Source of the DNA: Pseudomonas sp. Q2-TVG4-2
Lineage (GTDB): Bacteria > Pseudomonadota > Gammaproteobacteria > Pseudomonadales > Pseudomonadaceae
Assembly: GCF_013620795.1 (NCBI RefSeq)
Contig: NZ_LGLW01000004.1
Coordinates: 186,001-250,000, forward strand
Direction: 5' to 3'
DNA length: 64,000 bases
The notes under the pieces were generated by a model. The model searched no databases. It saw only the letters and a program-made list of their open reading frames with translations, and was not told where the DNA came from. Positions 55,552-59,052 of this stretch are shown here, piece after piece. The position numbers were made by a program, and so were the translations under genes. Position 1 is the stretch's first letter; every line of letters starts with the position of its first letter.

Positions 55552-56382
55552 CTAACCGCAGGAAGCCGACTTCTCGGCTTTCTTGGCCTCGCCCCAAAGC
55601 GCGTCGAGCGTTTCCAGGTCGCAATTCTCAATGGGCCGGCCACTTTCCCGCAAGGCTTGTTCGATGAAGCGGAAGCGTCGCTCGAACTTGCGGTTGGCCG
55701 CACGCAGCGCGTTCTCGGGATCGACTTTCAGATGGCGCGCCAGATTCACCGTGACGAACAGCAGATCGCCGATCTCCTCGGCAATGGCCTTGGGATCGTT
55801 CTCGCTCATGGCTTCGAGCACTTCATCGAGTTCCTCGCGGACCTTGTCCACCACCGGCAGCGCGTCCGGCCAATCGAAACCGACCTGGGCGGTGCGCTTC
55901 TGCAGCTTGGCCGCACGGCTCAGGGCGGGCAGCGCACCGGGCACATCATCGAGCAACGACAACTGTTCCGGCGCGGCGGATTTCTCTGCGCGTTCCTCGG
56001 CCTTGATCTCTTCCCAGCGCTGCTTGATCGCCGCCTCGTCGAGACGTGGCAGTTCAGGCGAGCCGTAGAGATCGCCGTCAGGAAAGACGTGGGGATGGCG
56101 TCGCAGCAACTTACGCGTGATGCCGTCGACCACCGCATCGAACTCGAACCGCCCCTCCTCCTTCGCCAGCTGGCTGTAATAGACGACCTGAAACAACAGG
56201 TCGCCCAGCTCGCCGGGCAGATGGTCAAAGTCACCGTTCTCGATGGCATCCGCCACCTCATACGCCTCCTCCAGCGTATGCGGGACGATACTGGCGTAGT
56301 CCTGCTGCAGATCCCACGGGCAGCCATGCTGCGGATCGCGCAGCCGGGCCATCAGGTGCAGGAGGTCGTTGAGTTGGTACAT
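55552..56382 (-). CDS. mazG: Nucleoside triphosphate pyrophosphohydrolase
   Basis: Hydrolyses NTPs to NMP and pyrophosphate; in E. coli it lowers ppGpp and limits damage from toxin activity. ATG 56382 (MYQLNDLLHLMARLRDPQHGCPWD) gives 276 residues with two MazG domains; EELGDLLFQV (EExx pattern) and AEEIGDLLFVTVNLARHL are the metal-binding helices. Downstream of relA in the same orientation, the common relA-mazG pairing. Confidence 0.95.
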   Translation of the reverse strand: MYQLNDLLHLMARLRDPQHGCPWDLQQDYASIVPHTLEEAYEVADAIENGDFDHLPGELGDLLFQVVYYSQLAKEEGRFEFDAVVDGITRKLLRRHPHVFPDGDLYGSPELPRLDEAAIKQRWEEIKAEERAEKSAAPEQLSLLDDVPGALPALSRAAKLQKRTAQVGFDWPDALPVVDKVREELDEVLEAMSENDPKAIAEEIGDLLFVTVNLARHLKVDPENALRAANRKFERRFRFIEQALRESGRPIENCDLETLDALWGEAKKAEKSASCG

Positions 56383-56425
56383 GAATTTCCTCGGTGAAAG
56401 CTTGAAGATCGAAGTTGCGGCCAAC

Positions 56426-56500
56426 GTAGGGTGGATGACGCTTCACCCATCCACCGCTGCCTCATCATGGTGGATGTAAAAAGCGACATCCACCCTACGT
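56426..56500. repeat. Inverted pair of GGTGGATG elements
   Basis: gtagggtggatgacgcttca to 56455 and, mirrored, ggtggatgtaaaaagcgaca to 56500. Outer arms GTAGGGTGGATG/CATCCACCCTAC make a ~73-bp imperfect palindrome, BIME-like. Same family as 55465-55535 on the other side of mazG. Confidence 0.75.
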
Positions 56501-56545
56501 GCGCTCTGCGTTACGGATTCAGACGTGCGCGCGCCCGGCCCCGAG

Positions 56546-56656
56546 CGTCGCGAGCGATGAGCTGGCTAGGCGAAGGCCTACCGAAAAAGCGGAGTTGGCT
56601 TTTGCCAATGAGCATTTTTCGGTAGGCCGTTAACAACGCCAGATCGAGCGCAGCAG
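56546..56656. repeat. Hairpin repeat copy A
   Basis: Direct repeat of 111 bp bounded by cgtcgcgagcga and gagcgcagcag. Its core is a 14-bp perfect stem (56575-56588 with 56615-56628; ggcctaccgaaaaa) around a 26-base loop that itself contains TTGGC-TTTT-GCCAA. Confidence 0.85.
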
Positions 56657-56693
56657 CTCGGAGCGGATCGCTTTAACCATACACTGGCCTGAC

Positions 56694-56804
56694 CGTCGCG
56701 AGCGAAGGCCAGACAAGGCGCACGCCTGCTGAAAAAGCGGAGTTGGCTTTTGCCAATGAGCATTTTTCAGCAGGCGTGCAACGCCGTATGGCCGAGCGCA
56801 GCAG
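56694..56804. repeat. Hairpin repeat copy B
   Basis: Second copy, also 111 bp, with identical bounding sequences and identical 26-base loop. Stem 56723-56736 with 56763-56776 (cgcctgctgaaaaa) differs from copy A at three positions, each compensated on the other arm; it extends to 17 bp with outer GCA/TGC. Lies next to the relA stop and could also act as its terminator. Confidence 0.85.
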
Positions 56805-56805
56805 G

Positions 56806-59052
56806 TCAGGTGGTGCGCTGGCGCTTGGCCTCGATAATATTGGGCAGCTGCGAAATGCGGCTGAGCAGTCGGCCCAGCGCGTCCAGCCCTGGGATCTCGA
56901 TGGTCAGCGTCATCTGGGCCGTGCTGTCCTCTTTGTTCGAGCGGGTGTTGACGGCGAGCACGTTGATCCGCTCGTTAAGCAGAATCTGCGAGACGTCACG
57001 CAGCAGGCCGGAACGGTCGTAGGCACGGATGACGATATCGACCGGATAGGTTTTCTCCGGGATCGGGCCCCAGCTGACCTGGATAATCCGCTCTGGCTCG
57101 CGCCCAGCGAGCTGCAGTACCGAGCCGCAATCCTGGCGATGAATACTCACACCCCGACCCAACGTGATGTAGCCAACGATGGGGTCGCCCGGCAGCGGCT
57201 GGCAGCAGCCGGCCATCTGTGTGAGCAGGTTACCGACGCCCTGGATCTGCACGTCGCCACGCTTGCCCGGCTTGGTGCTGGTGGGTCGACGGGGAATCAG
57301 TTCGAGCTGATCGGTGGCGTGGCCATCCGGTTCCACCAGTTGCTGCGCATGGTTGACCAGTTGCGACAACCGCAGATCACCGGCACCCAGCGCGGCGAAC
57401 ATATCCTCGGCGGTCTTCAGGTTGGCTTTTTCTGCCAGCTTGTCGAAGTCCACCGGCGGCAGATCGAGGCGTCCGAGTTCACGCTCAAGCAGCGCTTTGC
57501 CGGCCGCGACGTTCTGATCGCGGGCCTGCAGTTTGAACCAGTGGACGATCTTTGCTCGCGACCGCGAGGTGGTGATGTAGCCGAGGTTGGGATTCAACCA
57601 ATCGCGACTGGGCGATCCGTGCTTGCTGGTGATGATCTCGACCTGCTCGCCGGTCTGCAGGCTGTAGTTGAGTGGCACGATGCGCCCATTGATCTTCGCA
57701 CCGCGGCAGTTGTGACCGATTTCGGTGTGGACGCGGTAGGCAAAGTCCAGTGGCGTGGCGCCCTTCGGCAGGTCGATGGCGTGACCGTCAGGGGTGAACA
57801 CGTAGACGCGATCAGGCTCGATGTCCACACGCAGCTGATCGGCCAAACCGCCGATATCGCCCAGTTCCTCATGCCATTCGAGCACCTGACGTAGCCAGGC
57901 GATCTTCTCTTCGTAGTGATTGGAACTCGAATTGACGTCCGTGCCCTTGTAGCGCCAGTGCGCGCAAACGCCCAGTTCGGCCTCTTCGTGCATGGCCTGG
58001 GTACGGATCTGCACCTCCAGCACCTTGCCCTCCGGCCCGAGCACCGCGGTGTGCAGCGAGCGGTATCCATTCTCCTTGGGGTTGGCGATGTAGTCGTCGA
58101 ATTCCTTGGGGATATGCCGCCACAAGGTATGCACGATGCCCAGCGCGGTGTAGCAGTCGCGCACCTCGGGCACCAGCACGCGTACAGCGCGAACATCGTA
58201 GATCTGGCTGAACTGCAGCCCCTTCTTCTGCATCTTCCGCCAGATGGAATAGATGTGTTTGGCACGGCCGTCGATTTCGGGATGGATGCCGGTGGCGGTC
58301 AGTTCATCCCTGAGTTGCTGGACCACGCTCTGGATGTACTGCTCGCGATCCAGTCGGCGCTCATGCAGCAGCTGGGCGATCTGCTTGTACTGCTCGGGCT
58401 CGAGATAGCGGAAGGACAGATCCTCCAGCTCCCATTTAATGTGGCCAATGCCCAGGCGATGAGCCAGCGGCGCATAGATATCGAAGACTTCGCGGGCGAC
58501 GCGGTGACGCTTGTCGTCGTCGACATTTTTTACCGCGCGGATCGCGCAGGTGCGCTCGGCCAGCTTGATCAGCGCGACACGCACATCGTCGACCATAGCC
58601 ACGAGCATCTTGCGCAGGTTTTCCACCTGGGTCTGGGTGCCCAGCACCAGCGACTCGCGCGGGTTGAGACTGGCGCTAATGGCGGCCATGCGCAGCACGC
58701 CTTCGATCAGCTTGGCCACCACCGGGCCGAACTGCTGGTGCACCTCTGCCAGCTGAACCTTGCCTTCGCGCACGCCACGGTAGATCACCGCGGCCACCAG
58801 GCTGTCCTGATCGAGCTTGAGGTCAGCGAGTATCTCGGCGATCTCTAGGCCGGTCTGGTAACTGGAGGTGCCTTCGCTCCACAGATTCTGTACCGCGTTG
58901 GCCTGTTGTTCCGCCGCTCGGGCGAACTCGCAGGCCTGCTTGAGTGCATCGCGGTCGAGTGCCGGGTCCATCCCCAGCACATGATCGAGCCAGCCATCGA
59001 GGTTGATGCTGCCGTCGGTGTTGACCGGCTGAAGCGCTCTGACCTGGACCAT
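56806..59052 (-). CDS. relA: GTP pyrophosphokinase RelA
   Basis: Makes (p)ppGpp on ribosomes with uncharged tRNA. The 748-residue product has a degenerate HD domain (no active HD motif; FAxIYAPLAHRLGIGHIKWE-like stretch follows), synthetase motifs EFDDYIANPKENGYRSLHT, then TGS (PKGATPLDFAYRVHTEIGH), zinc-finger-like and ACT domains. GGGAAGG precedes the ATG. Followed by the repeat pair and then mazG, an enzyme that may lower ppGpp. Confidence 0.97.
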   Translation of the reverse strand: MVQVRALQPVNTDGSINLDGWLDHVLGMDPALDRDALKQACEFARAAEQQANAVQNLWSEGTSSYQTGLEIAEILADLKLDQDSLVAAVIYRGVREGKVQLAEVHQQFGPVVAKLIEGVLRMAAISASLNPRESLVLGTQTQVENLRKMLVAMVDDVRVALIKLAERTCAIRAVKNVDDDKRHRVAREVFDIYAPLAHRLGIGHIKWELEDLSFRYLEPEQYKQIAQLLHERRLDREQYIQSVVQQLRDELTATGIHPEIDGRAKHIYSIWRKMQKKGLQFSQIYDVRAVRVLVPEVRDCYTALGIVHTLWRHIPKEFDDYIANPKENGYRSLHTAVLGPEGKVLEVQIRTQAMHEEAELGVCAHWRYKGTDVNSSSNHYEEKIAWLRQVLEWHEELGDIGGLADQLRVDIEPDRVYVFTPDGHAIDLPKGATPLDFAYRVHTEIGHNCRGAKINGRIVPLNYSLQTGEQVEIITSKHGSPSRDWLNPNLGYITTSRSRAKIVHWFKLQARDQNVAAGKALLERELGRLDLPPVDFDKLAEKANLKTAEDMFAALGAGDLRLSQLVNHAQQLVEPDGHATDQLELIPRRPTSTKPGKRGDVQIQGVGNLLTQMAGCCQPLPGDPIVGYITLGRGVSIHRQDCGSVLQLAGREPERIIQVSWGPIPEKTYPVDIVIRAYDRSGLLRDVSQILLNERINVLAVNTRSNKEDSTAQMTLTIEIPGLDALGRLLSRISQLPNIIEAKRQRTT

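Follow-up and report, generated by a model that had tools for sequence, protein, structure and literature searches.

Paired DNA hairpins downstream of relA in a Pseudomonas genome belong to a large dispersed family of probably mobile elements with a conserved folded core

Results

The stretch of DNA analysed here, to which we refer as the window, comprises 64,000 nucleotides of Pseudomonas sp. Q2-TVG4-2 (contig NZ_LGLW01000004.1, positions 186,001 to 250,000) and contains on its minus strand an open reading frame (56806-59052) for a RelA-like protein of 748 residues, which was named from its sequence. In the gap downstream of this gene, a first-pass annotation had placed two repeats, A (56546-56656) and B (56694-56804), and we find that both are indeed copies of one folded element at these positions. 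Their location was described correctly, but the fold continues outwards via two further stems and reaches the stop codon of relA (TGA, 56806-56808, minus strand), which is contained in the outer stem of copy B (CCTGACC/GGTCAGG). Full matches to covariance models, obtained with cmsearch on the plus strand, extend from 56536 to 56666 for copy A (114.8 bits, E 1.8e-32 with model R1; 101.6 bits with model R2) and from 56684 to 56814 for copy B (133.1 bits, E 5.1e-38 with R1; 117.9 bits with R2), where R1 was trained on 16 sequences with A and B among them, and R2 on 48 diverse copies excluding A, B and the ERIC copies of E. coli, with L013 and other near relatives of B in the training set. As whole copies, A and B share 78% identity over 120 nt, and units of 123 nt fold with z-scores of -6.6 to -9.9 relative to dinucleotide shuffles on either strand. 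A comparison of positions 56300-57000 with Rfam 15 yielded nothing above the gathering threshold, the only hits being chance miRNA matches to another repeat. The window also carries a second inverted repeat at 56424-56500 (GTAGGGTGGATGACGCTTCACCC...GGTGGATGT...CATCCACCCTACG), which is GTAG-tagged and REP-like and recurs between relA and mazG in most related genomes, occasionally as several copies.

Folding of single copies defines an architecture that proceeds from the outside inwards through stem P1, loop c, stem P2, loop a, stem P3, loop b and stem P4. The outer stem P1 is variable and corresponds to the terminal inverted repeats in mobile subfamilies. Loop c (GTCGCGAGCG / GAGCGCAGCAG) is a conserved internal loop, not seen in ERIC or some distant copies, whose halves, conserved in alignment A1, are located on the plus strand at 56547-56556 and 56646-56656 in copy A and at 56695-56704 and 56794-56804 in copy B. 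A further conserved internal loop, loop a (CAAGGC / AACGCAG), is placed between P2 and P3, both of which covary. The long stem P3 with all it encloses spans 56575-56628 in A, as a 14-bp inverted repeat pairing 56575-56588 with 56615-56628, and 56720-56779 in B, where 17 bp are formed between 56720-56736 and 56763-56779 (plus strand in both cases). The 14-bp stems ascribed to both copies are present, and so are the three compensated pair differences between them (G-C/C-G, A-T/G-C and C-G/T-A), although 14 bp is the length of the perfect stem in A only, that of B being 17 bp. P3 encloses an identical segment of 26 nt in both copies (56589-56614 in A and 56737-56762 in B, plus strand), which had been taken for a 26-base loop. 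It instead holds a 5-6-bp stem, TTGGC-TTTT-GCCAA, between the conserved GCGGAG and TGAGCA that constitute loop b. This apical stem P4 (in A, TTGGC at 56595-56599 and GCCAA at 56604-56608, with the tetraloop TTTT) covaries across genomes, with the pair variants TTTAC/GTAAA, TTGGC/GCCAA, TTTGC/GCAAA, TTGCC/GGCAA and TTTAG/CTAAA and a variable tetraloop. Covarying stems around a fixed loop had been read as a sign of constraint on a folded molecule; the constraint stands, but what was taken for a loop is a stem that itself covaries and is flanked by a conserved internal loop. Among other forms of the hairpin, long versions (L024, L032, L316, L330) carry in one arm an additional stretch of about 60 bp (CAACGACCAACGGGAGTAACAGCC...GAATC) with no counterpart in the other, and solo-end elements of about 60 bp (L314, L321, L322) were left by internal deletion.

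The covariation of the stems is manifested in an alignment of 16 sequences, in which 88% of cells are paired, a percentage towards which the structure, having been derived from the same 16 sequences, is biased, though not so strongly. Double-sided changes are found in 24 of 43 pairs while the internal loops stay fixed, and the covariation score amounts to 0.38 compared to 0.16 in shuffled alignments. None of 500 shuffles reached the observed paired percentage or covariation score, and pairing falls to 27-41% when the partner strand is shifted by 1-3 columns. Covariation, for which the first-pass annotation had proposed a test, is in favour of a conserved fold, and the further copies it recommended searching for are present both in the same genome and across the genus.

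A pattern of the apical part matches five places in the own genome and is represented in 49 of the 56 genus genomes, whereas its reversed control gave almost no matches in the same genomes. With R1, all 56 genus genomes were matched, with 1-50 copies each and 15 copies in the own genome (E up to 0.01). Beyond the genus, R1 found matches in 104 of 398 genomes sampled phylum-wide, where the weaker ones may include chance matches; many have E-values below 1e-20 in other families and orders, and loops a and b are retained in distant matches. Named genomes among the listed matches to a sequence pattern include Pseudomonas, Stutzerimonas, Halomonas, Salinicola, Chromohalobacter and Methylophaga and, within the Bacteroidota, isolates of Marinilabilia in addition to many MAGs, whose assignments can be wrong. 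Sampled copies from Bacteroidota, Acidobacteriota, Bdellovibrio and Marinamargulisbacteria score with R2 at E-values of 1e-17 to 1e-21. A plasmid collection contained one match, on a Halomonas megaplasmid, phage and viral collections gave no match with the queries used, nor did viral contigs with the sequence pattern, and literature searches for strings of the core returned, among the matches listed, only unrelated ones. In Bacteroidales MAGs (L200, L219, L229, L238, L258, L263, L268), many copies reside about 20 bp or less from contig ends, as though assembly had been interrupted by the multi-copy hairpin. A and B are members of a large dispersed family of DNA hairpins with a conserved folded core.

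We compared the relA locus at 30 loci of the genus. A and B are found together in L034, L038, L039 and L044, B alone in L040, L041 (decayed), L048 and L062, and A alone or A/B recombinant and partial forms in L035-L037, L042, L043 and L047, with neither at the remaining loci and many species of the genus lacking the element at relA. B occurs alone in other species, and A adjoins B in a subset. The length of RelA is unchanged in the sequences compared by eye, and its stop codon is TGA where B is present and TAA, TAG or TGA where it is absent. At relA, orthologous copies have acquired one-sided changes as well as indels, indicating that old copies are not being kept perfect; the earlier statement that no change is uncompensated is correct within the 14-bp stem but does not extend to these orthologues. 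The A/B recombinant and half-hairpin forms at relA in L036, L042, L043 and L047 reflect rearrangement between copies.

Evidence for mobility comes from two subfamilies with sharp ends. In the subfamily with ends GAGCCTGTTC, 13 of 21 non-redundant copies are flanked by a perfect 3-bp TNA target duplication, and a single TGA in L338 faces TGA-element-TGA in L327, with a 12-nt indel adjoining. A search with the joined flanks of L327 returned this near-empty site only. No insertion sequence with GAGCCTGTTC ends was seen in the genus or among the listed places of the family. An IS1182-family element (L368) was considered as mobiliser of this subfamily and rejected, as it is inserted into a hairpin copy and has its own CAGCCTG ends. 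Its transposase gene is located in two frames inside the hairpin copy (475-2318 of L368), and the element, bounded by CAGCCTG(C/T)CGGACTT ends, occupies a CT(A/G)G target located at loop c.

The second subfamily, with ends TAGGNTNTGTACGAAAAGT (TAGGNTNTGTACG..., TAGGCTTTGTACGAAAAGTC), is flanked by CTAG/CTAG in many copies and by YTAR-like sequences in most. Its ends of about 18 bp and its CTAG/YTAR targets are common to IS5-family elements of 912-914 bp (0.91 kb), of which L418 contains a transposase of the IS5 family that is split over two frames, each part scoring above the NCBIfam cut-off (NF033580), and is matched over its full length by L414, L405, L408, L409 and L419 at 80-89%. These common ends and targets suggest that an IS5-family transposase acting in trans would be the natural mobiliser of the TAGGNTNTGTACGAAAAGT subfamily. 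The hairpin core was not found in the IS5-family elements when R2 was applied to L405, L408, L414 and L418. Elements of 142-145 bp (L403, L407) have the same IS5-type ends in the absence of the conserved core, which is thus not needed for transposition by that insertion sequence. Since A and B contain neither recognisable terminal inverted repeats nor a target duplication, we infer their mode of arrival from the family.

In both sharp-ended subfamilies, the terminal target is frequently a stop codon. This coincidence is exact in 15 of 21 GAGCCTGTTC copies and in 17 of 24 TAGGNTNTGTACGAAAAGT copies, counting stops of frames of at least 100 codons, which may include spurious ones. With null rates of 0.14 and 0.34, taken from all non-coding target sites and stops of the 64-kb window alone, the corresponding P values of about 4e-9 and 3e-4 are rough, since copies may share ancestry and gene calls are ORF-based. 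In a general sample, about 40 of 71 copies have a stop codon no more than about 10 nt away from one end (a hand count with ambiguous frames), most commonly that of a gene reading towards the right end of the element. The 13 right-hand genes of the TAGGNTNTGTACGAAAAGT subfamily show no mutual similarity in blastp. With a stop codon as target, its duplication leaves the gene intact, and these data do not discriminate between a preference of the enzyme and the persistence of those insertions that do least harm.

ERIC, also termed IRU or RU-1, is a 127-bp enterobacterial intergenic repeat that is classified as a MITE and has served as a marker in typing for decades. When searched against 240 kb of E. 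coli DNA, comprising 40-kb regions around ERIC places, R2 detected six matches (E 1.7e-6 to 0.0019), all of them ERIC and corresponding to four distinct loci near cusC, ybhI, fbaA and narK, and nothing besides ERIC up to an E-value of 10. As the regions were picked around ERIC, this demonstrates specificity and not sensitivity. The scores of 20.6-29.5 bits are weak apart from one copy, and matching letters in the alignments are confined to loop a, loop b and the apical stem, with many pairs unmatched. A pattern derived from the ERIC sequence had no match in 274 genomes of the class. A model that was trained without ERIC and finds ERIC alone in these regions argues for a distant relationship, and by model score we regard ERIC as a probable distant member of the superfamily, with the copies of the window not being close to it in sequence. 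The resemblance could also reflect convergence between long imperfect hairpins with purine-rich internal loops, ERIC being an unrelated MITE, which would be in line with the low scores, the unmatched pairs and the absence from ERIC of loop c and, within loop b, of the additional G and the bulged A. Conversely, R2 matches are confined to ERIC places in the 240 kb, common letters are equally placed (CAAG / AACGCAG and GAG-stem UUAC/GUAA-UGA) within the same length range, in three of four loci the right end is directed towards the stop of a minus-strand gene, as in Pseudomonas copies, and the intermediate L143 scores 33 bits with R1. We thus find convergence rather unlikely, and it would affect only the ERIC part of our interpretation.

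Discussion

In light of these data, we think it likely that A and B are non-autonomous mobile DNA hairpins, and thus MITEs, of a very widespread ERIC-like superfamily. In the proposed mechanism, the DDE transposase of a resident IS5-type insertion sequence would act in trans on the hairpin ends, inserting the element at a short T-N-A or Y-T-A-R target that becomes duplicated, and a gene hit at its stop codon would be preserved by this duplication. The inner fold would be retained because the folded form, either extruded or single-stranded DNA or a transcript, matters for spread or tolerance, and the relA copies would have arrived in the same way as the sharp-ended subfamilies. Mobilisation itself, the role of the core and the arrival of the relA copies are what we infer from the comparisons described above. 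Among the possibilities raised in the first-pass annotation, a multi-copy MITE-like element is the one that found support, in dispersed copies, covariation, target duplications and a near-empty site, and in ends that are common to one subfamily and an IS5-family transposon.

The compensated changes could also originate from quasi-palindrome correction, where template switching between the arms generates them without selection on the fold and the relA pair is a local duplication of a decaying repeat. Such a process would account for the scarcity of one-sided G-U intermediates, the long and near-perfect arms and the A/B recombinants and partial copies at relA. However, it would also erase internal loops, yet these are conserved in very distant genomes, it is at odds with the one-sided changes in orthologous copies, and it leaves target duplications and dispersed copies unexplained. 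We thus view it as an improbable explanation of the whole, although it may contribute to keeping the arms clean.

Even less probable, in our view, is a structured RNA of gene 3' ends, in which a co-transcribed hairpin governs termination, processing or stability of the upstream gene and selection acts on the RNA. The stop codon found about 10 nt or less from an end in about 40 of 71 sampled copies would fit such a role, as would the strength of the fold on either strand, and in Yersinia the stability of mRNAs is altered by ERIC copies located at their 3' ends (PMC2229807, PMC10969869). If selection acted on a single RNA strand, however, G-U pairs should be favoured, yet they are scarce and account for 6% of pairs on the plus and 7% on the minus strand, with about 60 of the 167 on the plus strand falling on one conserved position. 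This similar share on both strands gives no sign of selection on one of them; in a model-fitted alignment, G-T modestly exceeds A-C, a bias that the fitting itself favours. Both orientations relative to genes occur, the neighbours of the TAGGNTNTGTACGAAAAGT subfamily are unrelated, presence at a given gene is patchy and a match in Rfam is absent. The tandem RNA element at the 3' end of relA that had been suggested is likewise not favoured, as the family adjoins many unrelated genes and is missing at relA in many species of the genus. We lean towards the stems being kept as DNA rather than RNA. An integron attC site, which the structured hairpin brings to mind, is unlikely in view of dispersed single copies with target duplications.

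Returning to the view of A and B as mobile hairpins, it is conceivable, although we advance this only tentatively, that a single core common to ERIC and several phyla, residing on differing insertion sequence ends, prefers stop codons, with the core, in the form of folded DNA or of RNA, aiding either target choice or survival of the insertion. If true, this would define a modular 'hitchhiker' element instead of unrelated MITEs, and the mobiliser of ERIC should be sought among IS5-type transposases. Assigning ERIC to a superfamily in which Pseudomonas members have ends common to IS5-type insertion sequences makes the question of its mover directly testable. The positions at stop codons point to a way for repeats to spread in gene-dense genomes without breaking genes, and the combination of a constant core with changing ends raises the question of the purpose of the fold.

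Among known systems, ERIC resembles the present family as a single long imperfect hairpin of similar size that is intergenic and multi-copy, with loops a and b and the apical UUAC/GUAA stem equally placed. It differs in the absence of loop c and of the GC/GC and bulged A of loop b, and its primary sequence is otherwise different. ERIC has been described with terminal inverted repeats, a target duplication, 5'TA3' termini and no known transposase (PMC2229807), and in Enterobacteriaceae and Vibrionaceae (PMC10969869), whereas copies of the present family are found in Pseudomonas, Halomonas, Marinilabilia and others. As to the TA termini, one subfamily has TA inside the CTAG/YTAR at its ends and another has TNA duplications, with neither seen in A and B. 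The general properties of MITEs, which are short and dispersed with terminal inverted repeats and target duplications, are found in two subfamilies, with no clear repeats or duplication of this kind in A and B, and ends common with an autonomous insertion sequence were found for the TAGGNTNTGTACG... subfamily but not for GAGCCTGTTC. With MITEs mobilised in trans, the family shares a size below 250 bp and, in one subfamily, terminal inverted repeats and target duplications common with a resident-type insertion sequence. In contrast to an ordinary MITE, which derives from one insertion sequence, its single conserved folded core is combined with several sets of ends that are unrelated to one another, and this core is missing from the insertion sequence. 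As far as their descriptions go, R178 of Pseudomonas fluorescens (101 bp, with an internal inverted repeat) and the Ppu and Pae stem-loop families fit the present family by their size and intergenic location and by occurring in several strains (PMC2718517, PMC2267715). REP, BIME and REPIN elements with their RAYT transposases are likewise palindromic intergenic repeats of Pseudomonas, and a REP-like element had been among the initial candidates. We have discarded this assignment, as the GTAG/CGTC tag is absent from A, B and the conserved positions of a family that, with a unit of more than 110 bp, is much longer and, unlike these repeats, shows target duplications.
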